Shown here in pieces: positions 7,842 through 33,139 of a stretch of 64,000 nt of DNA. Both the position numbers and the translations under genes were made by a program. The notes under the pieces are model-generated. The model searched no databases. It saw only the letters and a program-made list of their open reading frames with translations, and was not told where the DNA came from. The DNA comes from Paenarthrobacter sp. GOM3 (GTDB taxonomy: Bacteria; Actinomycetota; Actinomycetes; Actinomycetales; Micrococcaceae): positions 744,001 to 808,000 of the forward strand of contig NZ_CP136562.1 in assembly GCF_018215265.2 (NCBI RefSeq), read 5' to 3'. Each line of letters begins with the position of its first letter. Positions within the stretch are counted from its first letter, which is position 1.

Positions 7842-8753
7842 GTGAACCTTCGCCACTCTGCCCTCGCCGTCCTGGTAGCCGTCCTCTGGGGCATCAACTT
7901 CGTCGCTATTGACCTCGGTCTGCACTCGAACGGTCGGGACGTGCCGCCGTTGCTCTTCGTCGCCATGCGCTTCCTCCTGGTCGTGTTCCCCTTCATCTTG
8001 TTCATCCGCAAACCCGACGTGGGCTGGAAGGCGATCGTCGGCGTCGGGCTCTTCATGAGCGCCGGCCAGTTCGGGCTCCTGTACCTCGGTATGGCACTTG
8101 GGATGCCAGCTGGGTTGGCCTCGCTGGTCCTCCAGGCGCAGGTGTTGTTCACCATCCTGCTTGCCTCAAGATTCCTGGGCGAAAGGCCCAGCCGCCGCCA
8201 ACTGGCCGGGGTGGTGCTTGGCATCGCAGGGTTGGGGGTGGTGGCGTTGGGGCGCAGTGCAGTGGCCCCGGTGCTGCCGCTCATGATCGTGCTCGCCGCG
8301 GCGTTGTCCTGGGCGGTGGGCAATGTGGTGGCGCGGCATTCGAAGGCCAAGTCCGGGCTTGGCCTGGTGGTGTGGTCCGGCGCGGTGGTGCCCGTTCCGT
8401 TGGCGGGCTTGTCGCTGGTGGTGGACGGCCCGGACACTGTTTGGGCGACACTTTCAGACCTTCAACCGGCCACCATCCTGAGCGCGATCTACACCGCGGT
8501 GTTCGCCTCGCTGGTGGGCTACGGCATCTGGAACCGTCTATTGTCGCTCTACCCGAGTTCCGACGTCGTGCCCTTCACGCTGCTGGTCCCGGTGGTGGGC
8601 ATGACGGCGGCTTGGCTGGTCCTGAACGAGATCCCCACACCCGCCGAAATCCTGGGCGGGCTGATCCTGCTGCTGGGCGTGGCCACCGCAGTACTCGGCG
8701 CCACGCGGAAACGCCCGGACATCCCCGTTGCGGGGCCCGCTTTGCGCGTTTAG
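7842..8753 (+). CDS. EamA-family (DMT) membrane transporter
   Basis: 303 residues from a GTG at 7842 (MNLRHSALAVLVAVLWGINF). An upstream ATG at 7791 is in frame but would leave only 21 bp for the shared promoter with LysR, so I prefer the GTG. About ten hydrophobic helices form two EamA repeats, with LVLQAQVLFTILLASRFLGE near the middle. Such proteins export amino acids or metabolites. The final residues, about VAGPALRV and the stop codon, are encoded by the left arm of a dispersed palindromic repeat (8724-8790), suggesting the repeat inserted here and changed the C-terminus. Confidence 0.85.
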   Translation: MNLRHSALAVLVAVLWGINFVAIDLGLHSNGRDVPPLLFVAMRFLLVVFPFILFIRKPDVGWKAIVGVGLFMSAGQFGLLYLGMALGMPAGLASLVLQAQVLFTILLASRFLGERPSRRQLAGVVLGIAGLGVVALGRSAVAPVLPLMIVLAAALSWAVGNVVARHSKAKSGLGLVVWSGAVVPVPLAGLSLVVDGPDTVWATLSDLQPATILSAIYTAVFASLVGYGIWNRLLSLYPSSDVVPFTLLVPVVGMTAAWLVLNEIPTPAEILGGLILLLGVATAVLGATRKRPDIPVAGPALRV

Positions 8754-8790
8754 CTCCCGCGATAGCGCGCAAAGCGGGCCCCGCAACGGG
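8724..8790. repeat. Dispersed palindromic repeat, copy A
   Basis: Perfect 25-bp inverted arms (8724-8748 and 8766-8790; core CGTTGCGGGGCCCGCT) around a 17-bp centre. It sits between convergent genes and covers the EamA stop codon. As RNA it would form a very stable hairpin and could end transcription from both sides. It is the most symmetrical copy of the six-member family. Confidence 0.92.
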
Positions 8791-8796
8791 AGTGGA

Positions 8797-10275
8797 TCAG
8801 CGCAAGGTGAAGATCGTGCGGTGCCAGTCCTTCTCAGCCAGGCCATCCAGCTCGAACATCACGTGCTTCACCTGGGTGTATTCCTCGAACGAGTAGGCGG
8901 ACATGTCCTTCCCGAAACCTGACTGCTTGAACCCGCCGTGGGGCATCTCGGAGATGATCGGGATGTGGTCATTGACCCAGACGCAGCCTGCCTTGATCTC
9001 GCGGGTGGCACGCAGCGCCCGCTGAAGGTTGTTGGTCCAGGCTGATGCCGCGAGGCCGTAAACGGTGTCGTTGGCCAAGCGGATGCCTTCGTCATCCGTG
9101 TCGAAGGGGATGACAACCAGGACAGGACCGAAAACTTCGTCCTTCACGATTTCCGAATCTGGAGCGGCGTCGACAACAAGCGTGGGCCGGTAGAAGGCGC
9201 CCCTGCCAAGGCTCCCATCGCTTGGGGCGAAGCCGCCCGCCATGATCTTGCTGTAGCCGCGGGCGCGTTCCACCATCCCGGCCACGTGGTCCCGTTGCTT
9301 GAAGGAAACCAGGGGGCCGAGGTCCGCTTCGGTGTCGTCCGGGGCGCCGAGGATAATCGAATCAAAGCGCGCCGAGACCTTGGCCACGAACTCGTCGTAA
9401 ACGCCTCGGTGGACTATGGCCCGCGTGGCTGCCGTGCAGTCCTGGCCAGTGTTGATGAGCGAACCTGCCACAGCGCCGTGCACCGCAGCGTCCACGTTGG
9501 CGTCGTCGAACACCACAAAAGGTGCCTTTCCGCCCAACTCCAGGTGCACGCGTTTGGCGTTGACGGCGGCCGCTTCCAGCACTGTCCGGCCAACAGCGGT
9601 GGACCCCGTGAAGGAGACCATGTCCACATCGGGGTGCCGCATGAGTGCCGCCCCAACCGTGTGGCCTTCGCCCACCACCACGTTCACCACGCCGTCGGGC
9701 AGCCCCGCGTCCGTGAGCGCCTGCGCGAACATCAGCGATGTGAGGGGCGTGATTTCGGCAGGCTTGAGCACAATGGTGTTGCCCGCGGCGATGGCCGGCA
9801 GGATCTTCCACGCCGCCATCTGCAAGGGGTAGTTCCACGGCGCGATGGACCCGACGACGCCGATGGCCTCCCGCCGGATGGACGAGGTGTGCTGTGGAGA
9901 GTATTCCGCGGTGGCTTTGCCTTCGAGGTGCCGGGCGGCGCCTGCGAAGAAGTCGATGTTATCGATGGTGCCGGGAACGTCGAACTCCCGGGTCAAGCGC
10001 AATGGCTTGCCCGTCTGGGAACTCTCTACGCGGGAGAATTCGTCCGCGCGTTCCTCCATGATCCTGGCGAACTTCTGCAGGATTCCGGCGCGCTCGCCCG
10101 GTGCGGTCCGGGACCACGACGGGAAGGCGGCGCGGGCCGCGGCCACGGCCACCTCGAGGTCCGCGAGCGAAGCCAGGCCTACGCTCGCCACCACCTCGGA
10201 GGTGGCCGGATTGATGACGTCGATGCTCTTTCCTGAAGTGCCGGTGAACGGTTGTCCGCTGATGAACTGGTGCAT
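8797..10275 (-). CDS. Aldehyde dehydrogenase, aminobutyraldehyde/betaine-aldehyde type
   Basis: 492 residues, full-length NAD(P)-dependent aldehyde dehydrogenase. It shows the oxyanion Asn148 in APWNYP, cofactor loop FTGSTAVGR (222-230), general base Glu246 in LELGGKAP and catalytic Cys280 in NTGQDCTAATR. GQDCTAATR is characteristic of gamma-aminobutyraldehyde dehydrogenases (PatD/PuuC relatives), so an amine-derived aldehyde is the probable substrate. It shares orientation with the TetR gene and lies back to back with an amidohydrolase, ABC importer and FAD amine-oxidase operon, which suggests it oxidises the aldehyde made by that oxidase. Confidence 0.9.
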   Translation of the reverse strand: MHQFISGQPFTGTSGKSIDVINPATSEVVASVGLASLADLEVAVAAARAAFPSWSRTAPGERAGILQKFARIMEERADEFSRVESSQTGKPLRLTREFDVPGTIDNIDFFAGAARHLEGKATAEYSPQHTSSIRREAIGVVGSIAPWNYPLQMAAWKILPAIAAGNTIVLKPAEITPLTSLMFAQALTDAGLPDGVVNVVVGEGHTVGAALMRHPDVDMVSFTGSTAVGRTVLEAAAVNAKRVHLELGGKAPFVVFDDANVDAAVHGAVAGSLINTGQDCTAATRAIVHRGVYDEFVAKVSARFDSIILGAPDDTEADLGPLVSFKQRDHVAGMVERARGYSKIMAGGFAPSDGSLGRGAFYRPTLVVDAAPDSEIVKDEVFGPVLVVIPFDTDDEGIRLANDTVYGLAASAWTNNLQRALRATREIKAGCVWVNDHIPIISEMPHGGFKQSGFGKDMSAYSFEEYTQVKHVMFELDGLAEKDWHRTIFTLR

Positions 10276-10324
10276 GGTGCCGTGCTTTCCCTGCCGGACG
10301 GCGGTGTCCGGGCAGTGCTGAATG

Positions 10325-10346
10325 AACGACGCCGGAGGGTGTCGTT
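10325..10346. promoter_or_regulatory. Inverted repeat upstream of the aldehyde dehydrogenase
   Basis: AACGACGCC (10325-10333), loop GGAG, GGTGTCGTT (10338-10346), with one G-T pair. It lies in the 109-bp gap between the TetR stop and the aldehyde dehydrogenase start, so it is either an operator for the dehydrogenase or a weak terminator of the TetR gene. Confidence 0.35.
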
Positions 10347-10384
10347 GTGCGGTTGGGTTTCAGTTGCGCTGGGCGCAGGGCCCG

Positions 10385-11062
10385 TTAGGCCTGCTTGCTT
10401 TCGCGTTCGGCGCTGTCCAGGATCGCCGTAAGGCCCGCCTGGAACGCTTTGAGTGAATCGAGGTTTTGCAGCGCTGCGTGGTGTTTCTCAAGGAGTGGAT
10501 GTCCGGTAATGCGGGTGAAGACCCGGGGGTTGATCCAGGGATCGTGGCCTTCGGAATCGGGAAGTCGCTGGATTTCCACAGCGATCCCCGCGCCCAAGGC
10601 CAGGGTGTAGCTTTCGAGTGCTGCGTAGTAGTGCACCACGCGATCCTCTTCCAGCCCTGCGTCGGTGAGGCATTGCAGGACGAACTCGATGGCCTTCAAC
10701 TCGCCGGGGCCGTAGGTGTCCGTGGCGAACGACTCGCTGCCAAGCGATGGGTGCTGCATGAAGACCCTGAGGAGTTCGTCGAGGTAGGCCTCAAGGCGGG
10801 CACGCCAGTTGTGGTCGCGTGCCGAGGCCAGGGTGCGCTCCACCGACATCATGAACAACTGGTCCAGCGCTGCCCGGACGATCGCGTCCCGGTTCCGGAA
10901 ATGCCGGTAGACAGCGGTCGCGTCAACCTCAAGTTCCTGGCCCAGCCTCCGGACGGTCAGCCGCTCGCCGGGTTCCTCGCTGGAAATCCGCAGGACTGCG
11001 TCAATGATGGTGCCGGGGTCCAGGCGCGTTCGGCGGTCCGTCGACTGTGCTGGCTGCACCAT
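10385..11062 (-). CDS. TetR-family regulator of the amine/amide catabolic cluster
   Basis: 225 residues from the ATG at 11062 (MVQPAQSTDRRTRL). The open frame extends 54 codons upstream, but that stretch crosses the promoter and palindrome region and does not look coding. The helix-turn-helix (about 35-56) reads LTVRRLGQELEVDATAVYRHF. The rest is a helical TetR ligand domain with no recognisable ligand. It sits between the aldehyde dehydrogenase (same strand) and the divergent amidohydrolase operon, and a perfect palindrome is present in the divergent promoter region, so it probably represses both sides until an inducer is bound. Confidence 0.88.
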   Translation of the reverse strand: MVQPAQSTDRRTRLDPGTIIDAVLRISSEEPGERLTVRRLGQELEVDATAVYRHFRNRDAIVRAALDQLFMMSVERTLASARDHNWRARLEAYLDELLRVFMQHPSLGSESFATDTYGPGELKAIEFVLQCLTDAGLEEDRVVHYYAALESYTLALGAGIAVEIQRLPDSEGHDPWINPRVFTRITGHPLLEKHHAALQNLDSLKAFQAGLTAILDSAERESKQA

Positions 11063-11161
11063 CAGTTGTCCGCCTTCCACGCGATCCGGGTTGATATTCA
11101 ACCTACATGATTCATGGCTGCCTCCTTCCAAGGACAAGTCAAAGACTTTGTCAGCACTGAT

Positions 11162-11176
11162 GTCAACACTGTTGAC
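11162..11176. promoter_or_regulatory. Candidate TetR operator
   Basis: GTCAACA-C-TGTTGAC, a perfect palindrome with 7-bp arms, 62 bp before the amidohydrolase start and 100 bp before the TetR start. Its position in the divergent promoter region is what an autoregulated TetR operator would have. Confidence 0.55.
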
Positions 11177-11238
11177 TTTAGTGTGATCCGGCTCATAGTG
11201 TGTGCCGAAGAGTTGAATTTCCATGAAAGGACTCGACA

Positions 11239-12936
11239 GTGCACGCAGAGATTTTGTTTGAGAACGGATGGGTTTACACCGGCAACGACGCCGGACCCGT
11301 TCGTGCGGACCTGGCCGTGGCAGCAGGCCGGATCATCGCCGTCGGAAGACCCGAGGACCTCAACGGGACAGTCACCCCCGAGACCCGCAGGGTGGACTTG
11401 GACGGGCAGCTGGTGGTCCCCGGCTTCCAGGATGCGCACATCCACCCCATATTCGCCGGAATCGAGATGCTTCAGTGCGACCTCACCGAGGCTACCAACG
11501 CAGAAGAAGCCGTGGCGCTGGTTGCCCGCTACGCCGCCGCGAACCCCGATACTCCGTGGATCGTAGGCGCCGGTTGGTCCATGGACTTCTTCCCCGGTGG
11601 AACCCCGACGCGGGACCTCCTGGACGCTGTGGTGCCGGACCGGCCGGTGTATCTGGTGAACAGGGACCACCATGGAGCCTGGGCCAACACTGCTGCGTTC
11701 ACAGCGGCGGGGATCACCCGGGAAACCCCGGATCCAGCGGGCGGGCGCCTGGAACGCGAGCCCGACGGCACCCCTGCCGGCACCATCCATGAGGGCGCCA
11801 TGGATCTGTTCAATGACGTCAAGCCTGCGGTGCCCTACGAACTGGCGTACCAGGGACTGCTCGCCTCCCAGCAGCTGTTGCTGTCGCAGGGAATCACGGC
11901 CTGGCAGGATGCCTGGGTGCCCATCCCTGAGGGCGGACATGCCGACCATCTGGACGTCTATGTGGACGCGGCCAAGGCTGGAGACCTCAAAGTCCGGGTC
12001 ACCGCATGCCAGTGGTGGGACCGGACGGCGGGCATGTCGCAGCTGGACCAGATCGTGAAGAGGCGGCAACGCGTCGCTGAATCGAGCGACCCGCTCCTGC
12101 TCAACGCCAACACGGTCAAGGTCATGGTGGACGGTGTGGCGGAGAACTTCACTGCTGCCATGCACCACGTCTACCTGGACCACCACGGCAACCACACGGA
12201 GAACCGGGGCATCGAGTTCTTCGAAACGGGTGAGCTGCAGGAATTCGTCACAGCGATCGACGCCTCCGGCATGCAACTCCACTTCCATGCCTTGGGTGAC
12301 CGTGCGGTGACCGACGCCCTGGACGCACTCCAGGCAGCACGCGACGCCAATGGCTCCAACGATCAGCGCCACCACCTCGCCCACCTCCAAGTGGTCCGCA
12401 GCGAGGACATTCCCCGTTTCGCGGAACTCGGAGCCGCGGCCAATGTGCAGGCACTCTGGGCCTGCCACGAGGAACAGCTGGACACCTTGACCCTGCCGTT
12501 CCTGGAACCAGGCGCAGAGGACAGGCACTACCCCTTCGGCGAACTCGCAGCGGCAGGTGCCCGCCTGGTTGCCGGCAGCGACTGGCCCGTCTCCACGGCA
12601 GACCCCATCGTCGCCATTCACATAGCCGTTAACCGCAGGGCACCGGGGGAGGACCTGCCGGCGCTTGGCCCCGAAACGCAGAAACTCAGCCTCAAGCAGA
12701 TCATGGACGCCTACACCCAGGGCACAGCCTGGATCAACCACCTGGACCCGGACACCGGCACGTTGGAACCCGGCAAACTCGCCGACCTCGCTGTGCTTGA
12801 CGTCAACATTTTCGACGTCCCCGCCGAGGAACTGCACCGGGCGGTGGTGACGCAGACGTGGATTGGGGGCGAATGCGTCTACAACCGTTCAACAGACGCC
12901 ACGGACCAGGACCGGAAGACCCGGGTACTGCAATGA
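11239..12936 (+). CDS. YtcJ/N-substituted formamide deformylase-like amidohydrolase
   Basis: 565 residues, amidohydrolase family 3. Metal ligands are visible as His67 and His69 in GFQDAHIHP, Lys294 in VKVMVDGV, His350 in LHFHALGD, the RHHLAHLQ histidines (about 378-382) and Asp454 in GSDWPVSTADP. Arrangement and length match YtcJ proteins and N-substituted formamide deformylase, an enzyme described from Arthrobacter pascens that releases an amine from an N-formyl amine. It is the first gene of an operon and its stop overlaps the next start (ATGA). The exact amide is not known; the downstream amine oxidase favours an amine product. Confidence 0.85.
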   Translation: MHAEILFENGWVYTGNDAGPVRADLAVAAGRIIAVGRPEDLNGTVTPETRRVDLDGQLVVPGFQDAHIHPIFAGIEMLQCDLTEATNAEEAVALVARYAAANPDTPWIVGAGWSMDFFPGGTPTRDLLDAVVPDRPVYLVNRDHHGAWANTAAFTAAGITRETPDPAGGRLEREPDGTPAGTIHEGAMDLFNDVKPAVPYELAYQGLLASQQLLLSQGITAWQDAWVPIPEGGHADHLDVYVDAAKAGDLKVRVTACQWWDRTAGMSQLDQIVKRRQRVAESSDPLLLNANTVKVMVDGVAENFTAAMHHVYLDHHGNHTENRGIEFFETGELQEFVTAIDASGMQLHFHALGDRAVTDALDALQAARDANGSNDQRHHLAHLQVVRSEDIPRFAELGAAANVQALWACHEEQLDTLTLPFLEPGAEDRHYPFGELAAAGARLVAGSDWPVSTADPIVAIHIAVNRRAPGEDLPALGPETQKLSLKQIMDAYTQGTAWINHLDPDTGTLEPGKLADLAVLDVNIFDVPAEELHRAVVTQTWIGGECVYNRSTDATDQDRKTRVLQ

Positions 12937-14618
12937 GGCCGCAACCAGCGCGGGGTGCGGTGCGACCCAAACAGCGGACGACGCCGTCGCGCATCACAGC
13001 GATCGGTGCCGCCGCCGTCGTGGCCGGCTTGGTCCTGGCCGGCTGCGGTGCCCGGCCGGCCAGCGTGACTGAAGCCGGCGGTGGTCCCAAGTTCACGCTG
13101 TCCGACTCAACGCCAGCACCTGCCAAGGAGATCGACAACTTCACGTGGGCCATGTACGCGGAGCCGTTCTCGCTGGACTATGCCTACGCCTTCGACTACC
13201 CGGACAACACTGTCCTGTCCAACGTCTGCGAGTCGCTCTTCCGCTGGAACGCGGACCTGTCCACCTCGCCCGGACTGGCAACCGGCGTGGAGAACCCGGA
13301 CCCCTTGACGTGGGTCTACACCATCCGGCAAGGCGTGAAATTCCACGACGGCAGCGAGATGACAGCGGATGATGTGGTGGCCTCCCTCAGCCGACACCTG
13401 AACCCCGAGGTGGGCTCCTTCTGGGCCTCCTCCTACCAGAACGTGGAGTCGATCGAAAAGACCGGCGAGTACCAGGTAACGGTAACCACCACGCGGCCGG
13501 ACTACGTGTTCAATGCCTCGTTGGTGGGCGCACCGGGTGTGGTGGAATCCGCCAAAACACTGGAAGCCGCAGGCAAGGACTATGGCAACTCCAGCACCGG
13601 CGTGAACTGCACAGGGCCGTTCAGTTTCGACTCATGGGAGCCCGGCGAAAGCATCACCCTCAAGCGCTTCGACGACTACTGGGATCCGGACCTCAAAGCC
13701 AAGTCCCGGCAGGTCACGTTCACCATGCTTCCGGACGCAACGTCGCGCATCAACGCCTTCCAGACCGGCGAGATCGACGGCGGTTTCGCGATTCCCTCCA
13801 ACGCCATGGACATCCTGAAAGCCAACAAGGACGCAGGATCTGTCTACTTCGGCAAAGACACGTCAGTGCAGAGCATGGTCTTCACCAACCTCGGCGGCAC
13901 CTTCAAGGACGTCAAGGTTCGGAAGGCACTCATGATGGCCATCAACCGGGAAGCCCTGATCAAGGCCGCGGAACAAGGCTACGCAAGCAAGACCGACGCA
14001 CTGACCACCCGCAACGTGTGGAAGGACGCCTCCCAGGAGACCACGGACGAAGCTTTCAACGGATTGCTCGCCACACCCTATGACGTGGCGGAAGCCAAAA
14101 AGCTGGTCAAGGAAGCAGGAGCGGAAGGAAGCAAGTTTGTCTTCGCCACCGCGTCATTGAACGCAGCCTTCGACATCACAGCCCGGGCCATCGCCTCCGC
14201 TGCCAAGGAAATCGGCCTGGACCCGGAAATCCAGACCATGTCCAACGACAAATACACCACCCTCTTCTCCGACCCCGAAGCCCGCAAGAACGTGGACCTG
14301 CTGGTGACCTCCTGGTACCTGTCCAGCACCGAACCCCTGGAAATGTACAGCGTGCTGCGAACCGGCGACTTCAGCAACTACGGCGGCTGGAGCAACCCGG
14401 AATTCGACGAGCTCGTCAACACGGCCTACGGAGTGCAGGATCCCGACGCCCGCAGCAAGCTCACCGGCCAGGCGGCCAGGATCGCCAGCGAAGACGTCGT
14501 CTGGGGTCCGCTCTACGAAACTGTCACCACCATGTGGCTGGGCAAGCGCATCACCGGCGCCGACCCGTCCATCAACTACATGTACTTCCCGTGGGCAGCC
14601 AAGATTGGAGGTCTCTGA
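12933..14618 (+). CDS. Peptide-type ABC transporter substrate-binding lipoprotein
   Basis: 561 residues from the ATG at 12933, which overlaps the amidohydrolase stop. The lipoprotein signal ends VLAGC with lipidated Cys38. The mature part is a cluster C binding protein (SBP_bac_5): DPLTWVYTIRQGVKFHDG and FSFDSWEPGESITLKRFDDYW are family hallmarks. Such proteins deliver peptides, opines, nickel or small organic amides to a DppBC channel. The operon context suggests capture of the amide or amine that the flanking enzymes degrade. Confidence 0.92.
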   Translation: MRPQPARGAVRPKQRTTPSRITAIGAAAVVAGLVLAGCGARPASVTEAGGGPKFTLSDSTPAPAKEIDNFTWAMYAEPFSLDYAYAFDYPDNTVLSNVCESLFRWNADLSTSPGLATGVENPDPLTWVYTIRQGVKFHDGSEMTADDVVASLSRHLNPEVGSFWASSYQNVESIEKTGEYQVTVTTTRPDYVFNASLVGAPGVVESAKTLEAAGKDYGNSSTGVNCTGPFSFDSWEPGESITLKRFDDYWDPDLKAKSRQVTFTMLPDATSRINAFQTGEIDGGFAIPSNAMDILKANKDAGSVYFGKDTSVQSMVFTNLGGTFKDVKVRKALMMAINREALIKAAEQGYASKTDALTTRNVWKDASQETTDEAFNGLLATPYDVAEAKKLVKEAGAEGSKFVFATASLNAAFDITARAIASAAKEIGLDPEIQTMSNDKYTTLFSDPEARKNVDLLVTSWYLSSTEPLEMYSVLRTGDFSNYGGWSNPEFDELVNTAYGVQDPDARSKLTGQAARIASEDVVWGPLYETVTTMWLGKRITGADPSINYMYFPWAAKIGGL

Positions 14619-14619
14619 C

Positions 14620-15642
14620 ATGACCGTTCTGGATCAAGCAATGGCACCCGCGCCACCCCTGAAACCGGTAGGCAAAAGGAGCAGGGCAAACCGTCCGATG
14701 GTCTTCATCGCCAAGAAGGTGCTGGCCCTGCTGGCCACCCTGTTGGTCGCCTCAATGGCCGTGTTCTTCTCGCGTTTCCTGGTTCCGGGTGACCCCGCAC
14801 GCTTCCTGCTCAGGGGCCGCAGCCCCAAGCCCGAGGCCCTCGAAGAGATCACCAGGCAGTTCGGCCTCGACAAGCCGGCCTGGGAACAGTACCTGAACTG
14901 GCTCGGCGGCATCCTCCGCGGCGACTGGGGCCGTTCGCTGACCTACCGGCAGGACGTCTCGGACGTGTTGCTTGGACGGTTACCCACCACCCTTCAACTC
15001 GTTGCGCTCGCCGCGGTGTTCATTACCATCCTGGGCCTGTTCGCGGGCATCGTGGCAAGCCTGAACAAAGGCTTCGGCGACCGTTTCATCCTCATCACCC
15101 TGACCGCGGCCGGAGCCGTGCCGCCCTTCGTTGCGGCCATCGCCCTGGTGGCCCTCTTCTCCGTGGGACTGGGCTGGTTTCCCTCCTTCGGAAGCGGCGA
15201 CGGCGGATGGGACCGGATCTGGCACCTCACCCTCCCGGCGCTCGCCTTGGGTATCACCTACATCGCCATGGTTGCCCGGGTAACCCGCTCCTCGATGAAT
15301 GAGCAGCTGCTCCGCGAGCACGTGGAAGTGGCAACCAGCCGTGGCCTCACCCGCGGCTCGGTGGTGGCACGCCACGTGCTCCGCAACGCACTGGGGCCAA
15401 TCCTCACGGTGAGCGGTGTCCTGGTGGCGGGGTTGCTGGTTTCAAGCGCCATCATCGAACGGACCTTCGGCCTGTCAGGTATCGGCCAGCTCCTGGTGCA
15501 GTCCATCGACAGGCTCGACTTCGCCGTGGTCCAGGCAATCGTCATGGTGGTGGTCACCGCCTTCGTCCTTGTGAACACCGTGGTGGACCTGGTCCAGCCC
15601 CTCATTGATCCGCGTATCGCGGCCGGAACGGAGTCCCGATGA
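14620..15642 (+). CDS. ABC transporter permease, DppB-like
   Basis: 340 residues from the ATG at 14620, preceded by GGAGG at the right spacing. N-terminal transmembrane helix, FLVPGDPARFLLRGR, the extracellular loop and an EAA-type cytoplasmic loop (VEVATSRGLTRGSVVARHVLRNALGP read across about 225-250) identify a DppB/OppB permease. It overlaps the next permease by 4 bp (ATGA). Confidence 0.92.
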   Translation: MTVLDQAMAPAPPLKPVGKRSRANRPMVFIAKKVLALLATLLVASMAVFFSRFLVPGDPARFLLRGRSPKPEALEEITRQFGLDKPAWEQYLNWLGGILRGDWGRSLTYRQDVSDVLLGRLPTTLQLVALAAVFITILGLFAGIVASLNKGFGDRFILITLTAAGAVPPFVAAIALVALFSVGLGWFPSFGSGDGGWDRIWHLTLPALALGITYIAMVARVTRSSMNEQLLREHVEVATSRGLTRGSVVARHVLRNALGPILTVSGVLVAGLLVSSAIIERTFGLSGIGQLLVQSIDRLDFAVVQAIVMVVVTAFVLVNTVVDLVQPLIDPRIAAGTESR

Positions 15643-16496
15643 CCCTGGCGATGCAACTCCCACAGGCGGGTCTTCGCCGTTACGGCAGCCTCCTGTCACC
15701 GATGGCGTGGGCGGCGCTCGCCGTTGCCGCCGCCGTCGTGCTTCTCTCGGTCTTTGCCCCGGTCCTGGCGCCGTACGATCCCGACTATGTGGACCTCAAC
15801 AACGTCCTGGCCGGTCCCGGCGCACAACACCTGCTCGGGACGGACGCGCTGGGCCGGGACCTCCTCAGCCGGCTGATGCACGGCAGCCGGACATCACTGC
15901 TGGGACCCACCATTGTGGTGATCGGATCAACGGTGCTGGGCTTGCTGCTGGGCTTGGTTGCCGGCTGGTCCGAGGGTTGGCTGGGCAAGGTCCTGGGCCG
16001 GCTTTTCGACCTTCTCTTCGCTTTCCCTGCGCTCCTGATGGCCATGCTGGCAATCGCCCTCTTCGGCAAGGGACTCTTTGCCCCCATCCTCGCCATGACC
16101 ATCGCCTACGTGCCCTACGTTGCCAGGCTGGCCCAGTCCCTGGTGGTGGCCGAGCGTGGCCGGCCCTACGTCCAGGCGTACCGGGTCCTCGGATTCCGGA
16201 CACCCTGGGTGGTGCTGGGGCGGGTCCTGCCCAACCTCATTCCCACAGTGGGTGCGCAATCGACGTTGAACTTCGGCTACGTACTGGCCGACCTCGCCGC
16301 GCTCTCCTTCATCGGACTCGGAGTCCAGCCGCCCACCAGCGACTGGGGCGCCATGATCGAGGAATCCCGGGGCGCGCTGCTGGGCGGCTACGTCCTGCCC
16401 GCGTTCTGGCCCGCACTGGTGGTGGTCCTGGTGGTGGTGGCCGTCAACATCATCGGCGAAGAACTTTCAGACCGCATCGGAGGAAAACTGTCATGA
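15639..16496 (+). CDS. ABC transporter permease, DppC-like
   Basis: 285 residues, DppC/OppC family. LLGTDALGRDLLSRLMHG near residue 65 is the OppC N-terminal hallmark and the EAA loop YVQAYRVLGFRTPWVV lies near 175. Five to six transmembrane helices. It overlaps the preceding permease and the following ATPase by 4 bp each, so all are translated together. Confidence 0.92.
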   Translation: MTLAMQLPQAGLRRYGSLLSPMAWAALAVAAAVVLLSVFAPVLAPYDPDYVDLNNVLAGPGAQHLLGTDALGRDLLSRLMHGSRTSLLGPTIVVIGSTVLGLLLGLVAGWSEGWLGKVLGRLFDLLFAFPALLMAMLAIALFGKGLFAPILAMTIAYVPYVARLAQSLVVAERGRPYVQAYRVLGFRTPWVVLGRVLPNLIPTVGAQSTLNFGYVLADLAALSFIGLGVQPPTSDWGAMIEESRGALLGGYVLPAFWPALVVVLVVVAVNIIGEELSDRIGGKLS

Positions 16497-18097
16497 GCCA
16501 GCTCCTGAAGATTCAAGACTTCACCCTCGGCTTCCCGGACAGACCACCCCTCCTGGACAGCGTCACCCTGCACGTGGACGACGGCGAAGCCGTCGCCTTG
16601 GTGGGGGAGTCAGGCTCAGGGAAGTCCCTGACAACCCGGGCCGCCCTGGGGTTGTTCCCCGGAGGCACGCGGTACTCAGGAACCGTGTCCGTTAAGGGTC
16701 TCGATACCCTTACGGCCAGCAAGCAACGCCTTATGGAGCTCCGGCGTGGCCACGCGTCCATGATCTTCCAGGACCCCAGGGCAGGCATCAACCCCGTCCG
16801 GACGGTGGGGGACTTCCTTACCGAGACGCTGCTGCGGTTCGACGGGCTGTCCCGTGCCGAAGCTACCGAACGGGCCGTGAAGCAACTCGAGCAGGTTGGA
16901 CTGCGCCGGGCCAAGGAACTCATGGACCAGCACCCGCACCAGCTCTCGGGCGGGATGCTCCAGCGCGTGATGATTGCCGCGGCGCTGCTCAATTCTCCCG
17001 ACCTCCTGCTGTGCGACGAGCCCACCACTGCCCTGGATGTCACGACCCAGGCAGGAATAGTGCGGCTCCTCCGCGAAGAGCAGCAGTCACGGGGGATGGG
17101 CATGTTGTTCATCACCCACGACCTGAACCTCGCGGCCAGCCTCTGCGAACGCGTCTACGTGCTCCGTCGCGGCAAGGTGGTGGAGCAGGGTCCTACCCGG
17201 ACGGTGTTCCAGATGCCGCAGCAGGAGTACACCCGGGAACTGGTGGAGGCGACGCCCGTCATCGAGTTGGGCGACATCCCCGAACCACAGGCTGGGGCGT
17301 CGGCTTTGCTTAATGTCTCCGGGCTGACCAAGAGCTACGAATTGCCCGGTGGTGAAGTCATTACCGCTTTGGACAACGCACGCTTCAGTCTCCCCGAAGG
17401 CGGATCCCTGGGCGTGGTGGGGGAGTCGGGCTCCGGTAAATCCACCCTGGCCCGCCTTGTGGTGGCACTCGAAACCGCCACCGACGGCGACCTCACACTT
17501 GGCGGTGTACACAGGCCCCGGCGGTCACTCAAAGCCTCCGAGCGCAAGATCCTGGCCAAGGATGTCCAGATCGTCTTCCAGGACCCTTACCTGTCCCTGG
17601 ATCCGCGGATTCCCGTGGGCAACGCTGTGGCCGATGTGTTCCGCCTCCACCAGGGGCAAGGACGCAAGCAAGCCAAGGCCAGCGCCACGGAACTCCTGGG
17701 CAGGGTGGGAATCGGGCCTGAACGGTTGGATGCGCGGCCGCGGGCGCTTTCGGGCGGCCAGCGGCAGCGCGTGGCCCTGGCCAAGGCGCTCGCCGCACGT
17801 CCACGGCTCCTGGTTCTGGACGAAGCCACAAGTGCCCTGGATGTCTCCGTCCAAGCGCAGGTCCTGGAACTCGTGGAAGAACTGCGGGACCAGTTCGGGC
17901 TGACCATCCTGTTCGTCACCCATGACCTGGCAGTGGTCTCGCGCCTATGCTCCCAGCTGCTCGTGATGCATCAGGGACGGATCGTGGAGCAAGGGCCCAC
18001 GGTACGGATCCTGGAAGACCCTGGCGACGACTACACCAAGAACCTCATTGCCTCACGTCCCCGGCCCTTGTGGGACGCCGAGCCGGTCACCGCCTGA
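16493..18097 (+). CDS. Fused double ABC ATPase (DppD-DppF type)
   Basis: 534 residues from the ATG at 16493, overlapping the DppC stop. It has two complete nucleotide-binding domains. First: Walker A GESGSGKSL, signature LSGGMLQRV, Walker B LLLCDEPTTALD. Second (from about 285): GESGSGKSTL, LSGGQRQRVALAKALA, LLVLDEATSALDV. One gene thus replaces separate dppD and dppF and powers the permeases encoded just upstream. Confidence 0.93.
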   Translation: MSQLLKIQDFTLGFPDRPPLLDSVTLHVDDGEAVALVGESGSGKSLTTRAALGLFPGGTRYSGTVSVKGLDTLTASKQRLMELRRGHASMIFQDPRAGINPVRTVGDFLTETLLRFDGLSRAEATERAVKQLEQVGLRRAKELMDQHPHQLSGGMLQRVMIAAALLNSPDLLLCDEPTTALDVTTQAGIVRLLREEQQSRGMGMLFITHDLNLAASLCERVYVLRRGKVVEQGPTRTVFQMPQQEYTRELVEATPVIELGDIPEPQAGASALLNVSGLTKSYELPGGEVITALDNARFSLPEGGSLGVVGESGSGKSTLARLVVALETATDGDLTLGGVHRPRRSLKASERKILAKDVQIVFQDPYLSLDPRIPVGNAVADVFRLHQGQGRKQAKASATELLGRVGIGPERLDARPRALSGGQRQRVALAKALAARPRLLVLDEATSALDVSVQAQVLELVEELRDQFGLTILFVTHDLAVVSRLCSQLLVMHQGRIVEQGPTVRILEDPGDDYTKNLIASRPRPLWDAEPVTA

Positions 18098-18156
18098 GCC
18101 GGTCACTGCCTGAGCAGGCCGGCCAAGAACCTACCCCAGAAACAGGAGAGTTTCCC

Positions 18157-19575
18157 GTGAATACCACCGTTTTCGAACGGAATGTCCCGCAGGCCGACGT
18201 CGTTGCCAATGCGCTGCAGGGTGCCGCCCACCGGCCCTTTTGGATCGACGACATGAAGGACAAAGCAACGCACTACCCACAGCTCGACGGCGATGCTGCC
18301 GCCGACCTGGTGATTGTCGGCGGCGGTTACACCGGGCTCTGGACAGCCCTGCGAGCCAAGGAACGAGACCCTGACCGAACCGTAATCCTGCTCGAAGCCG
18401 AGCGGGTGGCGTGGGCGGCATCGGGACGCAACGGCGGTTTCTGCGAGGCCAGCCTCACCCACGGCCATGAGAACGGCAGGAACCGGTGGCCGGACGAATT
18501 GGACACCCTGGACCGGCTGGGAATGGAGAACCTGGACCGCATGCAGGAGGCCGTGGAGAAATACGCCATGGACTGCGAGTGGGAACGCACCGGCGAACTC
18601 AACGTGGCCGTCGAACCACACCAGGTTGCCTGGCTCCGGCAGGATGATAGTCCCGGGAGCGTCTTCCTGGATCAGGACGCTATCCGGGCCGAGGTCAATT
18701 CACCCACGTACTTGGCGGGCCGTTGGCACAGGGATTCTGTGGCCATGGTCCACCCTTACAAACTCGGACTCGAATTGGCGCGCGTGGTCACGGACTTGGG
18801 CGTCCGGATCCATGAGGGTACCCGCGTCAGGGAGCTCAACGACCACGATCACGGCGTCACCGTCGTCACGGAGCGCGGCAACGTCGAAGCCGGTCAGGTG
18901 GTCCTGGGCACCAACGTGTTTCCGTCGTTGCTCAAGCGCAACCAGCTGATGACCGTGCCCGTGTACGACTATGCGCTCATGACCGAGCCCCTCAACGCCG
19001 AACAGCTGGCATCCATCGGCTGGACCAAGCGCCAAGGCATTGGGGACGTCGCCAACCAGTTCCACTACTACCGGATCACCAAGGACCACCGGATCCTTTT
19101 CGGTGGCTACGATGCCCTCTACTTCTGGGGCCGCCGCGTGGACCAGCGCCACGAGCACCAGCCCGCCACGTGGGAGAAGATCGCATCCCACTTCTTCACC
19201 ACGTTCCCCCAGCTCGAGGGCCTGAAGTTCACGCACAAGTGGGCCGGACCCATCGATTCGAGCACTCAGTTCTGCGCCTTCTTCGGCACCGCCCGCAAGA
19301 ACAGGGTGGCGTACGCGGCCGGCTTCACAGGGCTCGGAGTTGGTGCCACGGCGTTCGCGGCCGACGTCCTCCTGGACTTGTTGGCTGGCTTGGACACTGA
19401 GCGCACGCGCGTGGAAATGGTCAGGAAACGGCCCTTGCCCTTCCCGCCCGAACCGCTGGCTTCCTTGGGCATCAACCTGACCCGATGGTCCATGGACAGG
19501 GCAGACCACAACCAAGGCAAACGGAACCTCATCCTCAAAGCGCTCGACGCCGTGGGGTTGGGTTTCGACTCCTGA
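18157..19575 (+). CDS. FAD-dependent amine/amino-acid oxidase (DAO/PuuB-like)
   Basis: 472 residues from a GTG at 18157 with AGGAGAG upstream. Residues 50-82 are a Rossmann FAD site (LVIVGGGYTGLWTALRAKE), followed by VAWAASGRNGGFCEA, a DAO-family flavin loop. The closest named group is gamma-glutamylputrescine oxidase and other secondary-amine oxidases that make aldehydes from amines. It is the last gene of the operon, 59 bp after the ATPase, and its expected aldehyde product matches the aldehyde dehydrogenase at 8797-10275. Substrate unproven. Confidence 0.88.
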   Translation: MNTTVFERNVPQADVVANALQGAAHRPFWIDDMKDKATHYPQLDGDAAADLVIVGGGYTGLWTALRAKERDPDRTVILLEAERVAWAASGRNGGFCEASLTHGHENGRNRWPDELDTLDRLGMENLDRMQEAVEKYAMDCEWERTGELNVAVEPHQVAWLRQDDSPGSVFLDQDAIRAEVNSPTYLAGRWHRDSVAMVHPYKLGLELARVVTDLGVRIHEGTRVRELNDHDHGVTVVTERGNVEAGQVVLGTNVFPSLLKRNQLMTVPVYDYALMTEPLNAEQLASIGWTKRQGIGDVANQFHYYRITKDHRILFGGYDALYFWGRRVDQRHEHQPATWEKIASHFFTTFPQLEGLKFTHKWAGPIDSSTQFCAFFGTARKNRVAYAAGFTGLGVGATAFAADVLLDLLAGLDTERTRVEMVRKRPLPFPPEPLASLGINLTRWSMDRADHNQGKRNLILKALDAVGLGFDS

Positions 19576-19581
19576 CCCACC

Positions 19582-19644
19582 CGTTGTGAGGCCCGCTTTG
19601 CGCGTTTAGACCACCCGTTAGCGTGCAGAGCGGGCCTCACAACG
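19582..19644. repeat. Dispersed palindromic repeat, copy B
   Basis: Arms of 23 bp (19582-19604 and 19622-19644; core GTTGTGAGGCCCGCTTTGC) with two mismatches and a 17-bp centre. It lies in the gap of a convergent gene pair. Its right end, including the bases after it, is almost identical to copy E. Confidence 0.9.
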
Positions 19645-19650
19645 CAGGGC

Positions 19651-20316
19651 TTAGCGTTTGGGTGCCGGCCTGCGTTGGGAAGAAGAGCTCGACGCCGGTC
19701 GCTTGGCTGCCGCTGCAGGGGTCCGGGGTGCCGCGGGACGCTTGGCGGCAGTGGGGTTGGCGGTTCCGGCGCCTCGTGGAGCCGTCGTAGCCGGGCGTTT
19801 GGCAGGCGTACCAGGACGAGCAACAGTCGTAGCCGGGCGCGGGGTGGGCTTGCGTGGAGCGGGACTTCGCTTGGCTCCGGATGCCGGCCGCTTGGCGGGA
19901 GCAGGTGCCCGCGATCCGAAGGACGGCACCACGGCTCCGAGGAACATCACGGCCAAGGTGCCAACACCTGCCACGGCGGCAAGGTAGAAGTAGATGTCCG
20001 AGTCTTCGGTGCTGACGGCACTTCCCATGGCATTGGCGTCCTGGTTGAACGCCAGCCCCCACATCCGCAGGAAGGCGATGCTGAAGCCAATGAACAGGCT
20101 GGTCCCCACCGCGCCGAGAAGGACCACCAGGTACCTGCGGCGGTTGAAGAGCTGGACGATGCAGGCCAGATAACAAACCAGCACGGCGCCAAGGAAGAGG
20201 TACAGGACCAGTTCCTCAAGGACGACGGCTGCGAGCACCAAGAGCCCGAGGGATACGAAGGCGGCAATGACCGCTAGCTTTCCGCTGTTCCCCATGTGAC
20301 GCATGAGGTTAATCAT
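19651..20316 (-). CDS. Four-helix membrane protein with basic Ala/Pro/Lys/Arg tail
   Basis: 221 residues; I do not recognise the family. Four hydrophobic helices at about 13-35, 38-55, 62-82 and 108-133 are followed by a tail of about 85 residues made almost only of Ala, Pro, Lys, Arg, Thr and Ser, with AKRPA repeated five times. The tail resembles histone-H1-like nucleic-acid-binding or wall-associated basic tails. Alternative starts exist at residues 5 and 8. It stands alone between palindromic repeats B and C. Confidence 0.75.
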   Translation of the reverse strand: MINLMRHMGNSGKLAVIAAFVSLGLLVLAAVVLEELVLYLFLGAVLVCYLACIVQLFNRRRYLVVLLGAVGTSLFIGFSIAFLRMWGLAFNQDANAMGSAVSTEDSDIYFYLAAVAGVGTLAVMFLGAVVPSFGSRAPAPAKRPASGAKRSPAPRKPTPRPATTVARPGTPAKRPATTAPRGAGTANPTAAKRPAAPRTPAAAAKRPASSSSSQRRPAPKR

Positions 20317-20364: not shown

Positions 20365-20427
20365 CGTTGTGGGGCCCGCTCTACAAGCTTAGGGCGCGCA
20401 ATACCCCTCAAAGCGGGCCTCGCAACG
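20365..20427. repeat. Dispersed palindromic repeat, copy C
   Basis: Conserved arms CGTTGTGGGGCCCGCT (20365-20380) and AGCGGGCCTCGCAACG (20412-20427) with a diverged centre of about 31 bp. It is 3' of the TetR gene and 5' of the basic-tail membrane protein, both on the minus strand. Confidence 0.88.
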
Positions 20428-23950: not shown

Positions 23951-23987
23951 AATGAAGCCTTTCGCAGAAATGGTGTCTACGAAAAGT

Positions 23988-25478: not shown

Positions 25479-25506
25479 GGGGAAAGCCTACAACTGCACT
25501 CCGGTG

Positions 25507-25568
25507 CGTTGTGAGGCCTGGTGTGCAGGGTTTGGGGGACCTTTGGGGTGCAGAGTGGGCCTGGCAAG
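25507..25568. repeat. Dispersed palindromic repeat, copy D (degenerate)
   Basis: CGTTGTGAGGCCTGGTGTGC at the left and TGCAGAGTGGGCCTGGCAAG at the right keep the family outline with several mismatches. The left 30 bases almost equal those of copy E. It lies between divergent genes, so here it overlaps promoter space. Confidence 0.8.
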
Positions 25569-25632
25569 TGTGGGGTGTCCAAATACTGGGATGTGTGTCT
25601 CAAAATATGGATCTGCTGCCTAGGCTGCAAAC

Positions 25633-26451
25633 ATGAATGATGACCTGAAACCTTTTGTCGACTGGAGTTGGTGCGCGAATAATCGCGGGAGCATTGTCTT
25701 GGCCGATGCCAGGTGGTACCTCGACGGCGCCTCAGGGAAGGACGCCTACGACGCCGGACACATCCCGGGCGCCGCGTTCATGGACTTGGATCGCTGGCTA
25801 TCGGGACCGGCTTCACCTGAGGCTGGAAGGAACCCGCTGCCCGATCCCGAAGTTTTCGCCGAAGGTATGCGGGAATCGGGCATCAGCGATGCCGACACCG
25901 TAATCGCCTACGACGACGCCGGAGGAGTGATCGCGGCCAGACTCGTCTGGATGCTCCGATCCACGGGGCACAAGGCCGCGATCCTCAACGGCGGAATCGC
26001 CAGCTATCCAGGGGATCTCTCGAGGGAGGCGCCAACTCCCTCCAGGGGGCGCTTCACAACACGAGAGTGGCCGGCGCATGTCATTGCCGACATCGCGGAG
26101 GTGTCTTCCGGCGGCAACACCACAGTGGATGCCAGAAACGCTGACCGTTTTGCGGGCAGGCAGGACCCCATCGACCCCCGTCCCGGGCACATTCCTGGAG
26201 CCGTTAGTGTCCCCTGCCGGGAGAATCTGGACCCCACGGGTCGCCTGCTCCCGGAAATGCAGATTCGCGCTAACTTCGAGCGTGCCGGCATCGTGTCCGC
26301 GAATGACACCATTTCCTACTGCGGCTCCGGAGTGACCGCGTGCCACAACGTGCTGACGATGGAGCATGTGGGCATGGGCCAAGGGAAGCTCTTCGTCGGC
26401 GGGTGGTCCCAATACGGGCACGCGACGGACAGGGCTGTCGAGACGGGCTAG
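25633..26451 (+). CDS. Thiosulfate/3-mercaptopyruvate sulfurtransferase
   Basis: 272 residues with two rhodanese domains (about 10-130 and 155-268). The first is inactive (it has YDDAGG where the cysteine loop should be). The second carries catalytic Cys230 in the loop YCGSGVTAC. A CGSGVT loop is that of 3-mercaptopyruvate-type sulfurtransferases rather than CRKGVT thiosulfate enzymes. Role: transfer of sulfane sulfur to thiols or cyanide. It stands alone between two related repeats (D and E). Confidence 0.92.
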   Translation: MNDDLKPFVDWSWCANNRGSIVLADARWYLDGASGKDAYDAGHIPGAAFMDLDRWLSGPASPEAGRNPLPDPEVFAEGMRESGISDADTVIAYDDAGGVIAARLVWMLRSTGHKAAILNGGIASYPGDLSREAPTPSRGRFTTREWPAHVIADIAEVSSGGNTTVDARNADRFAGRQDPIDPRPGHIPGAVSVPCRENLDPTGRLLPEMQIRANFERAGIVSANDTISYCGSGVTACHNVLTMEHVGMGQGKLFVGGWSQYGHATDRAVETG

Positions 26452-26460
26452 GCCAACCGT

Positions 26461-26524
26461 CCGTTGTAAGGCCTGGTGTGCAGGGTTTGGGGGCGCTTTA
26501 GCGTGCAGAGCGGGCCTCGCAACG
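26461..26524. repeat. Dispersed palindromic repeat, copy E
   Basis: CCGTTGTAAGGCCTGGTGTG on the left and TGCAGAGCGGGCCTCGCAAC on the right. It sits between the convergent sulfurtransferase and nanE genes. The left half matches copy D and the right half matches copy B, as if repeats recombine or convert in halves. Confidence 0.88.
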
Positions 26525-26529
26525 CAGGG

Positions 26530-27216
26530 CTACGCGTGCATCGCGCCCTTGAACCAGCCCGTAATCGACGCCGGGTGTGTGATCGCTGTGCCAACAACCA
26601 CGGCGAACGCGCCGGCGTCGAGGGCCTGGCGGGCATGAGCGGGGGTGTGGATCCGGCCCTCGGCGATGAGGGGCTTCCCTAGCTCAGCGGCTGCTATCGA
26701 GGACAGCAATTTCAAGTCCGGGCCATCAGTCTTGGCGCGCTCGCCGGTATAGCCGGACAGCGTGGTTCCGATCAGGTCGGCTCCGGCTTCGACGGCGGCA
26801 ACGGCGTCATCGAACGAGCCGCAATCGGCCATGACCAGAGCATGAGATTCTGCGTGGATACCTGCAACGGTGGCGGAGAGGGACAGCCCATCCGGCCGGG
26901 AACGCCGCGTGCCGTCGATGGCCACAACATGCGCTCCGGCATTCGCCACGGCAAGGGCATGGCGAAGGGTAGGAGTGATGAAAACGCCGTCATGGCCGTC
27001 CTTCCACAGTCCGATGACAGGAACCTCGACGGCGGCACGCGTGAACTGCACGTCGGCCAGCCCCTGGACGCGGATCGCCGCAGCCCCGCCGATGACGGCC
27101 GAAGCCGCCACTTGGCCGGTGGTCCGGGGATCACGCATGGGCTCACCCGGGTAGGCCTGGCAGGAGACAATCAGCTGGGAGCGGAGAGCTTCGAGGTTTT
27201 CGGGGGTGAGGATCAT
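26530..27216 (-). CDS. nanE: N-acylglucosamine-6-phosphate 2-epimerase (NanE)
   Basis: 228 residues from the ATG at 27216 with GGGAGA upstream; the longer open frame is not supported. TIM-barrel NanE motifs: LIVSCQAYPGEPMRDP, SAVIGGAAAIRVQG, VIGLWKDG, ADCGSFDDAVAAVEAGAD, LIGTTLSGYTG and LIAEGRIHTP. It converts N-acetylmannosamine-6-phosphate to N-acetylglucosamine-6-phosphate, the third step of sialic-acid breakdown. It lies 11 bp after nanK in the same operon. Confidence 0.93.
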   Translation of the reverse strand: MILTPENLEALRSQLIVSCQAYPGEPMRDPRTTGQVAASAVIGGAAAIRVQGLADVQFTRAAVEVPVIGLWKDGHDGVFITPTLRHALAVANAGAHVVAIDGTRRSRPDGLSLSATVAGIHAESHALVMADCGSFDDAVAAVEAGADLIGTTLSGYTGERAKTDGPDLKLLSSIAAAELGKPLIAEGRIHTPAHARQALDAGAFAVVVGTAITHPASITGWFKGAMHA

Positions 27217-27227
27217 GAATGTCTCCC

Positions 27228-28211
27228 TTAAAGAAGGACGAGTTTTGCGGCGCCAATAATGGCAGCGGAGTTGCCCAGGGACGCCTTGAGCACGGGGACT
27301 GCAGCCAAGGGTGCCAAGAGTTCCCGGCGCAGGGCAGCTTCCATGGGTTTCCACCAGAGCTCGCCGGCATCGGCCAGACCTCCGGAGATCACCACGGTTT
27401 CTGGGTCAAGGATGTTGATGAGGCCGCCCACGGCCTGGCCGGCTGCGGCAGCACCGGCGTCGACGGCGTGCACAGCGGCGTCGCGGCTGACCGCAAAGGA
27501 GGCACCGCCGTCGAGCGCGTCAGCACCGGAAGCCGCAAGCGCGAACACGCCACGCGTGTCCGCGGCCAAGGAAGCAGAGCCACCGCACAGCAGGTACGAC
27601 TCGTAGATGGCGGGCCCGGAAGCAACAGCCTCAACGTGCCCGGCAGAACCGCAGACGCAAGGCAGCGGGACCCCATCAAACGCAGCGTAAGGCGAAGCGA
27701 AATGCCCCACATGCCCGCCCACAAACCGGTGCCCAAGGACAGGGGCCCCGTCAAGTACGAAACTGCCGCCAACGCCTGTGCCAAAGGCGACCATCAGTGA
27801 GCTGGTCGAACCGGCTGAAGCGCCAAGCCACGCCTCGCCGAGGGCGTGCGCGTGGACGTCATTGACGGCCCGAACAGGGAGGCCGAGACGTGAAGAAAGT
27901 CCGGAAACAAGCGCAGTCCCCGACCACCCCGAAATCGCGTCGGTGGCGGACACCACAACTCCGGAAGAAGCGTCGATGACCCCAGCGGAGCCGACGCCGA
28001 CGCCGGACACTGAGTGCCCGGCGTCGGCAGCGCGCTCCACCAGACCCGCGATCAGCGCTGCGGTGGCGTCGAGGATCGCTTCGCCGCCAGCCCGGTTCAA
28101 CGTCGGAATGGTCTCCGTCATCAAAACTTCGCCAGAAGGGGAAACAACCCCGGCGGCAGTCTTGGTACCGCCGAGGTCAACGCCGATCACGTGGGGTTTG
28201 GAAGCGGTCAT
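27228..28211 (-). CDS. nanK: ROK-family kinase, probable N-acetylmannosamine kinase
   Basis: 327 residues. ATP site VDLGGTKTAAG (11-21), catalytic Asp118 in VNDVHAHALGE, and the ROK zinc motif at 185-194 as CVCGSAGHVE, in which the usual third Cys is His192. The sugar-contacting E of the E-x-GH motif is also replaced (GGHVGH). Its place between nanA-like and nanE genes supports ManNAc as substrate; another amino sugar is possible. Confidence 0.85.
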   Translation of the reverse strand: MTASKPHVIGVDLGGTKTAAGVVSPSGEVLMTETIPTLNRAGGEAILDATAALIAGLVERAADAGHSVSGVGVGSAGVIDASSGVVVSATDAISGWSGTALVSGLSSRLGLPVRAVNDVHAHALGEAWLGASAGSTSSLMVAFGTGVGGSFVLDGAPVLGHRFVGGHVGHFASPYAAFDGVPLPCVCGSAGHVEAVASGPAIYESYLLCGGSASLAADTRGVFALAASGADALDGGASFAVSRDAAVHAVDAGAAAAGQAVGGLINILDPETVVISGGLADAGELWWKPMEAALRRELLAPLAAVPVLKASLGNSAAIIGAAKLVLL

Positions 28212-28217
28212 TGAAAC

Positions 28218-29135: not shown

Positions 29136-29172
29136 AGAAATCTCCGTTGTTTGTAACTTGTGAAGGGAAAAA

Positions 29173-32096: not shown

Positions 32097-32099
32097 GAG

Positions 32100-33056
32100 C
32101 TATACCGTCCTGATTCGGGGGTTGATGAGCAGGTAGAGAAGGTCCACCACGATGTTCACCAGAACAAAGGTGACCGAGATGGTGAGCACCACGCCCTGGA
32201 CCAGGTTGACGTCCAGGTTGGTGATGCCGTTGAGGATCAGCTGGCCCATGCCGGGCAGGGCGAAGATCATTTCAATCACGACGGCGCCACCCAGCAGGTA
32301 GCCGACGCGGAGTCCCAGCACGGTCACCGGGGTGACGAGCGCGTTGCGGAGGACATTCTTGGAGACGACTTCGCGGTAGGGCACACCGTTGCCGATGGCG
32401 GTCCGGACGTAGTCGCGGTCCAGTTCTTCAACCATCGAGGTACGGACCACCCGGATCAGCGACGCCGAGACAGGGATGCCGAGCGCCAGGGCCGGGAGGG
32501 CCATCGAGTTGAGCCAACCGCCAAAGCCGGACTCCGGCGTCGCAATTCCACCCGAGGGGAACATCGGGTTCTCACCGAGGGCGAACCACTGGATCAGCAG
32601 GATGCCGAGCCAGAACGACGGGGTGGCGATCGCGGCGATCGAAAAGACACGGACCAACTGGTCCTGCCACTTGTCGCGGTAGAGGGCGCCGAGGATGCCG
32701 AACGCCAGCGACAGCACAATGGCGATGAGTACGCCGAGGAAAGTGAGCTGAAGCGTCAGGGGGAACGCTGAGGCAATCATGGAAGCCACCGACTTGGCCG
32801 GCGGGGTGGTGGTGCCGAGGTCGAACTGCAGGAGCTTGCCGAGGAATCGGAAGTACTGCAGGACCAAGGGGTCGTTCAGGCCATTGTCCTGGCGGTATTG
32901 CTGCTTGGCTTCTTCGCTGGCGCCGTCACCGAGGGCGGAGCTTGCCTGGTCGCCGGGAGCGGCCTGCAGGACGAGGAAGACGAGCAACGTGATGCCCAGG
33001 ATCATCAATGGCAATGCTGCTAGCCTGCGGCCAAGCAGACGCAATATCGTGACCAA
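32100..33056 (-). CDS. ABC transporter permease, DppB-like
   Basis: 318 residues, six transmembrane helices, N-terminal LLGRRLAALPLMILGITLL and EAA loop RDYVRTAIGNGVPYREVV near 235. It precedes the fused permease/ATPase by 3 bp. A palindromic repeat (copy F) separates it from the binding-protein gene. Confidence 0.93.
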   Translation of the reverse strand: MVTILRLLGRRLAALPLMILGITLLVFLVLQAAPGDQASSALGDGASEEAKQQYRQDNGLNDPLVLQYFRFLGKLLQFDLGTTTPPAKSVASMIASAFPLTLQLTFLGVLIAIVLSLAFGILGALYRDKWQDQLVRVFSIAAIATPSFWLGILLIQWFALGENPMFPSGGIATPESGFGGWLNSMALPALALGIPVSASLIRVVRTSMVEELDRDYVRTAIGNGVPYREVVSKNVLRNALVTPVTVLGLRVGYLLGGAVVIEMIFALPGMGQLILNGITNLDVNLVQGVVLTISVTFVLVNIVVDLLYLLINPRIRTV

Positions 33057-33078
33057 TTTGTTCTCCGGTGTGTTTCTG

Positions 33079-33139
33079 GTTGTGGGGCCCGCTCTGCGGG
33101 GTATTTAGGGGTTCAACCCTGCAGAGCGGGCCCCACAAC
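33079..33139. repeat. Dispersed palindromic repeat, copy F, inside the importer operon
   Basis: Perfect 19-bp arms GTTGTGGGGCCCGCTCTGC (33079-33097) and its complement (33121-33139) around a 23-bp centre. It fills the 94-bp gap between the binding-protein stop and the permease start. The hairpin could stabilise the binding-protein mRNA end or reduce read-through into the permease genes. Confidence 0.92.

Follow-up and report, generated by a model that had tools for sequence, protein, structure and literature searches.

Dispersed palindromic repeats of Paenarthrobacter sp. GOM3 and a candidate partner nuclease of the DUF559 family

In the window analysed here, a stretch of 64,000 nucleotides from Paenarthrobacter sp. 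GOM3 (positions 744,001 to 808,000 of contig NZ_CP136562.1), six related palindromes, named copies A to F, are found at gene boundaries. The unit common to the six copies is 61 bp long, slightly shorter than the 63 bp or so of the original prediction, and reads GTTG...CAAC, copy D ending in CAAG. The placement of the copies, read from the list of open reading frames, is as predicted:

8727..8787, no strand assigned: copy A, perfectly palindromic, adjoining the 3′ end of gene 8797-10275(-)
19583..19643, no strand assigned: copy B, where frames 17947-19575(+) and 19651-20316(-) converge at their 3′ ends
20366..20426, no strand assigned: copy C, amid tandem minus-strand frames
25508..25568, no strand assigned: copy D, eroded, flanked by divergent frames 23988-25478(-) and 25633-26451(+)
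26463..26523, no strand assigned: copy E, where frames 25633-26451(+) and 26530-27354(-) converge at their 3′ ends
33079..33139, no strand assigned: copy F, between tandem minus-strand frames 33151-34854 and 32100-33056

Copy A also covers the terminal 27 nt of frame 7791-8753(+). Unlike the frame list, a rough gene caller scores both A and E as tandem. At up to three mismatches, the half-site GTTGYGRGGCCYGCTYTGC has 13 matches in the window, 12 of which are the two arms of copies A-F; none of 100 shuffled windows reaches 13 (mean 0.46). Folding energies of the copies as RNA range from -27.5 to -54.7 kcal/mol (z -3.5 to -10.6) and are equalled by 0 or 1 of 200 shuffles. Symmetry had been described as perfect in A and F and eroded in D. 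This is the case for A, a perfect 25-bp inverted repeat, and for D; the 29-nt arms of F are 90% complementary. The predicted absence of copies from the last 30 kb or so is confirmed for 33140-64000, the sole exception being one half-site with three mismatches at 59047.

The palindromes belong to a family, called R1, that is dispersed in the genome. A covariance model built on 25 copies, run against the genome of the strain at E 1, gave 76 matches on both strands, corresponding to 38 copies, or to 31 sites after arrays were merged by hand. The arrays, with a period of about 74 bp (61 bp plus about 13), are located at 1218800, 1220015 and 3643510. The gene caller placed 35 of the 38 copies: 12 between convergent genes, 13 between tandem genes, 5 between divergent genes and 5 inside a frame, three of these within an over-extended DUF559 frame and two uncertain. 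R1 placement is usually intergenic, and many copies lie 3-12 nt off a stop codon. Despite the 31 known sites, a stretch of 1.33 Mb (G000:C1:1403243-2731099) carries zero copies; it would correspond to the terminus side if the contig begins at the origin. Across the order, 12 of 39 genomes, that of the strain included, have a match, and all 12 belong to its own genus. Across the genus, 62 of 198 genomes have a match at E 1e-6, in a scan that kept at most the best 27 matches per genome. The proposal of a genome-wide family resembling repetitive extragenic palindromes (REPs) or miniature inverted-repeat transposable elements (MITEs) is thus borne out. Of 36 R1-rich genomes, 22 carry and 14 lack the gene described below.

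The gene linked to R1 lies outside the window (G000:1219107-1220033) and encodes a 309-residue DUF559/MTES_1575 protein. It is located between two R1 arrays. R1 is found on both sides of its orthologues (clade 1) at 23 of 23 loci and at 0 of 12 other loci. Since nag and purH are the neighbours at 22 of the 23 loci, the nag-purH position is a stable locus of the clade-1 gene, named close relatives of which occur in Paenarthrobacter and Arthrobacter species. G012 lacks the clade-1 gene and gave no R1 match when the genus was scanned; there, 120 bp separate the starts of nag and purH. The original prediction had suggested a search for a REP-associated tyrosine transposase (RAYT). No Y1/RAYT transposase (PF01797) was found in the genome of the strain, the one genome searched, control genomes being positive in 5 of 14 cases. 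Therefore, R1 is not part of a classical REP-RAYT system, and the observations support a DUF559 nuclease, in place of a RAYT, as the partner gene of R1. NCBIfam gives the protein no name above its cut-off.

The upstream regions of DUF559 genes have a feature of their own. With one mismatch allowed, TGTGGATAAC is present at 65 of 140 loci (orthologues included), 64 of them at -49 to -37 (for instance L116, L149 and L168, about 46 nt ahead of the start). In control counts over the 140 loci, the pattern occurs 0 times downstream, once within genes and twice on the opposite strand, and its reversed form once. The complement of TGTGGATAAC contains TTATCCACA, which we take to be a DnaA box, and DUF559 expression may be tied to replication.

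DUF559/MTES_1575 proteins are encoded in 42 of 296 Actinomycetota genomes (E 1e-20), and genes of other clades often have palindromes of their own. Matching flanks were observed at 35 of 37 other DUF559 loci, a set which includes orthologues, so that loci are not independent, and from which L174 was left out for its short flank. Among further loci, 17 of 29 scored above all 60 shuffles, with the reservation that single bases were shuffled and that some flanks are tandem repeats and no palindromes. Of 64 named distant loci (excluding L242 and L284, with short flanks), 32 exceeded the 95th percentile of 1155 matched placements. As a control, neighbouring genes have matching flanks in 2 of 139 cases. 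The palindromes span about 50-65 bp; the upstream one usually falls at about -130 to -70 relative to the gene start, the downstream one at 0 to +60 relative to the stop. Among pairs of unlike clades (protein score ratio below 0.55), 0 of 1912 palindrome pairs reached score 15, and likeness of proteins follows that of palindromes (Mantel r 0.79), in part through common descent. L148, with a stop in its translation, was excluded from analyses A2 and A5. L084 and L086, two DUF559 loci of the strain's own genome, have no matching flanks. At L168, L169, L171 and L083, the flanks are short tandem repeats of about 31-32 bp instead of long palindromes.

Two of these families are dispersed as well. R2, built from the palindromes flanking clade-2 genes, is found in 42 of 47 clade-2 genomes vs 15 of 151 others; kinship is ignored in these counts, and the first is partly built in because R2 derives from clade-2 flanks. 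At least 20 of these 42 genomes have an R2 copy more than 5 kb off the gene or on another contig. The R2 stem is bordered by A and T tracts. Clade-3 genes are flanked by a third family, CCCAACT...AGTTGGG. Searching 400 kb of G178 with one flanking copy located 9 places, and searching 400 kb of G181 with another located 4; in each genome, two of these are at the gene. A related hairpin occurs at 14 places in 400 kb of G012, where no DUF559 gene was found.

What the partner protein may do can be envisaged from its predicted structure. Fold comparison of the AlphaFold model indicates an AbiEi-like part joined to an EDxHD/Vsr-like nuclease part, the EDxHD catalytic-domain fold being present in the model. 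E202, D235, H252 and D262 are invariant, and we read them as the putative catalytic E, D, H and D of the EDxHD motif; alignment to 3r3p leaves the His unpaired. A dimer acting on a palindrome of about 60 bp would fit both relatives.

The nearest known systems share some of these features. REP elements and RAYTs (PMC2817692 and PMC3733652) combine dispersed intergenic palindromes with a gene that has one of them on each side, an arrangement that R1 and the clade-1 gene reproduce (23/23 loci). Further likenesses are partner lineages with private palindromes, clustered forms and arms kept complementary. In contrast, the R1 partner is a predicted AbiEi-EDxHD endonuclease and no Y1/HUH transposase, and the R1 unit measures 61 bp vs 20-40, has no GTAG or CGTC tag and ends in GTTG...CAAC in most copies. 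Unlike the EDxHD homing endonuclease I-Bth0305I, the DUF559 gene is free-standing and carries an AbiEi-like part, and its proposed target is a multicopy palindrome. AbiEi antitoxins of type IV AbiE systems bind inverted repeats of their own promoter (PMC7319586). Here, the AbiEi-like part is fused to a nuclease domain, and no DUF1814 (AbiEii) toxin gene adjoins the clade-1 gene (clade 1 alone being considered), nag and purH being found there instead. The part of the autonomous element with matching ends, to which a MITE would be related, could be played by the DUF559 gene, bordered as it is by R1 on either flank. No link between DUF559 and repeats was found in titles and opening abstracts of the open-access papers naming DUF559 in one literature collection, and the repeat-nuclease partnership is apparently undescribed.

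Comparison of relatives informs on the age of the copies. The original prediction equated conservation at the same loci in all relatives with ordinary terminators. Such conservation is observed in part: R1 is present at all six window junctions in G081 and G090 and at fewer in G187, G195 and G189, and the copies look old because all six junctions are occupied in the first two genomes. Arrays vary, junction B having five tandem copies in G081 and two in G090, and junction D five in G081. A gene block is also concerned:

8788..19582, no strand assigned: gene block A-B, missing from G187 and G195, with a single palindrome at the joint

In these two genomes A is fused with B, and they also lack the gene separating D from E. 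In G187, E is the tandem neighbour of D. The likeness of D and E had been attributed to gene conversion, which becomes unnecessary because both copies are adjacent in G187, 74 bp apart; a tandem pair split by the gene is a simpler explanation. G189 has an additional gene block. Relatives differ in whether they carry the palindrome-bounded blocks 8788-19582 and 25569-26462, as though genes were lost or gained through recombination of one copy with another. At junction F, 70 of 91 matching genomes were read and sorted by eye: 42 have an R1-type palindrome, 7 a CCCAACT-type one, 13 other hairpins and 7 short spacers of 21-51 bp, one case being ambiguous.

The hairpin is upheld in R1. Among 94 distinct R1 rows, in an alignment fitted to the structure and with most copies counted on both strands, 89.2% of cells are paired vs 86.1% in shuffles, and 157 cells are changed on both sides of a pair; 0 of 500 shuffles are as high in either respect. 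The 25-copy alignment gives a weaker signal of the same sign (23/500 for paired cells, 9/500 for covariation). One alternative is that the palindromes are host RNA elements under selection, either bidirectional terminators or stabilisers of mRNA 3′ ends, with the DUF559 gene incidentally located between two of them. The many copies 3-12 nt from a stop codon, the 12 of 35 placed between convergent genes, the conserved positions, the unrelated hairpins at junction F in several lineages and the A/T tracts beside the R2 stem all agree with this model. However, no T run follows copies A-F on either strand, and a terminator scan covering A-E listed none of them, its loop limit of 8 possibly excluding them. 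Simple terminators are unlikely because there is no T run, tandem arrays occur and junction F has unrelated hairpins or none elsewhere; the original view was likewise that the copies are not obviously terminators alone. Moreover, five of the 35 copies stand between divergent genes, arrays keep a period of about 74 bp, and the two flanks of a DUF559 gene resemble each other while varying from clade to clade, which is hardly seen with neighbouring genes (2/139). Overall, we hold RNA elements with an incidental gene to be unlikely. At gathering score, an Rfam scan of the window found three tRNAs and two riboswitches, and no match at copies A-F. The riboswitches, for glycine (49014-49112) and cyclic di-AMP (2229-2388), are ordinary.

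A second alternative is that the DUF559 protein is a factor derived from a defence or toxin-antitoxin system, the palindromes being its operators or protective decoys and no mobile substrate. The AbiEi-like part of the model, the promoter binding described in PMC7319586 and the palindrome upstream of the gene would suit such a role; copies past stop codons, tandem arrays and tens of dispersed copies are not accounted for, and the clade-1 neighbours are nag and purH (22/23 loci), with no toxin gene. This model appears rather improbable. Finally, the copies could be MITEs belonging to some unrelated transposon family, linked to DUF559 by shared ancestry and chance insertion. This would explain the inverted repeats, their dispersal and their patchy presence within part of the genus, but flanks that match through different sequences at many DUF559 genes and the same co-occurrence outcome for two clades speak against it, and we consider it very unlikely.

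We therefore favour, as reasonably probable, the idea that R1 represents the non-coding, dispersed component of a REP-like system of two parts, in which DUF559 clades are each paired with their own palindrome. Flanking, clade specificity, co-occurrence as raw counts, dispersed copies in three clades, predicted folds and hairpin upkeep are the direct observations behind it. The other half would be the AbiEi-like part with its EDxHD/Vsr-like endonuclease domain, kept at nag-purH and bracketed by single or arrayed R1 copies. The protein, a non-HUH partner, would recognise its own palindrome, bind it as a dimer and probably cut it, as duplex, cruciform or single strand. Repair of the cut from another copy would lead to copy gain, to array change and to likeness of the flanking pair. 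Copies settled by stop codons would be retained, the transcript hairpin protecting or defining mRNA ends.

Several observations weigh against this two-part system. The clade-1 gene is missing in 20 of the 42 genomes with an R1-type junction F, so that R1 copies are able to persist in its absence. In the 14 R1-rich genomes lacking it, another DUF559 partner was sought, and the 36 of 56 DUF559 matches examined gave one weak R1 match. R1 copies are common to several species, with no movement observed; no target-site duplication was seen by eye among 24 copies, nor did a clean filled/empty pair turn up. Copy C is a short remnant in G195, and its loss looks like a deletion. Among distant named loci, 32 of 64 have no matching flanks. 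The flank match is another sequence without hairpin at L146 and a 425-bp inverted repeat, unlike the hairpins, at L158, and no more than 46 of 65 flank segments exceed all 20 shuffles in self-complementarity. Fifteen R2 genomes lack clade 2 and five clade-2 genomes lack R2. Foldseek gave no match to the model at E 0.001. In the structure-fitted alignment, 107 of 500 shuffles have as many pairs with two-sided change, and 119 of 500 reach the observed value for pair types.

It is tempting to imagine, more tentatively, a widespread actinobacterial class, selfish or domesticated, in which AbiEi-EDxHD fusions cut private long palindromes and thereby spread, array and homogenise them, through homing-type cleavage and no HUH transposition. 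If true, DUF559/MTES_1575 proteins, for which we know of no established role, would have specific DNA targets that can be checked clade by clade. Palindromic repeats would gain a possible partner besides RAYT. This would bear on the origin and persistence of palindrome families for which no transposase is known, the CGTC REPs of PMC3733652 among them. Finally, unrelated hairpins at one junction in different lineages suggest a way in which repeats are reused by hosts at mRNA ends.
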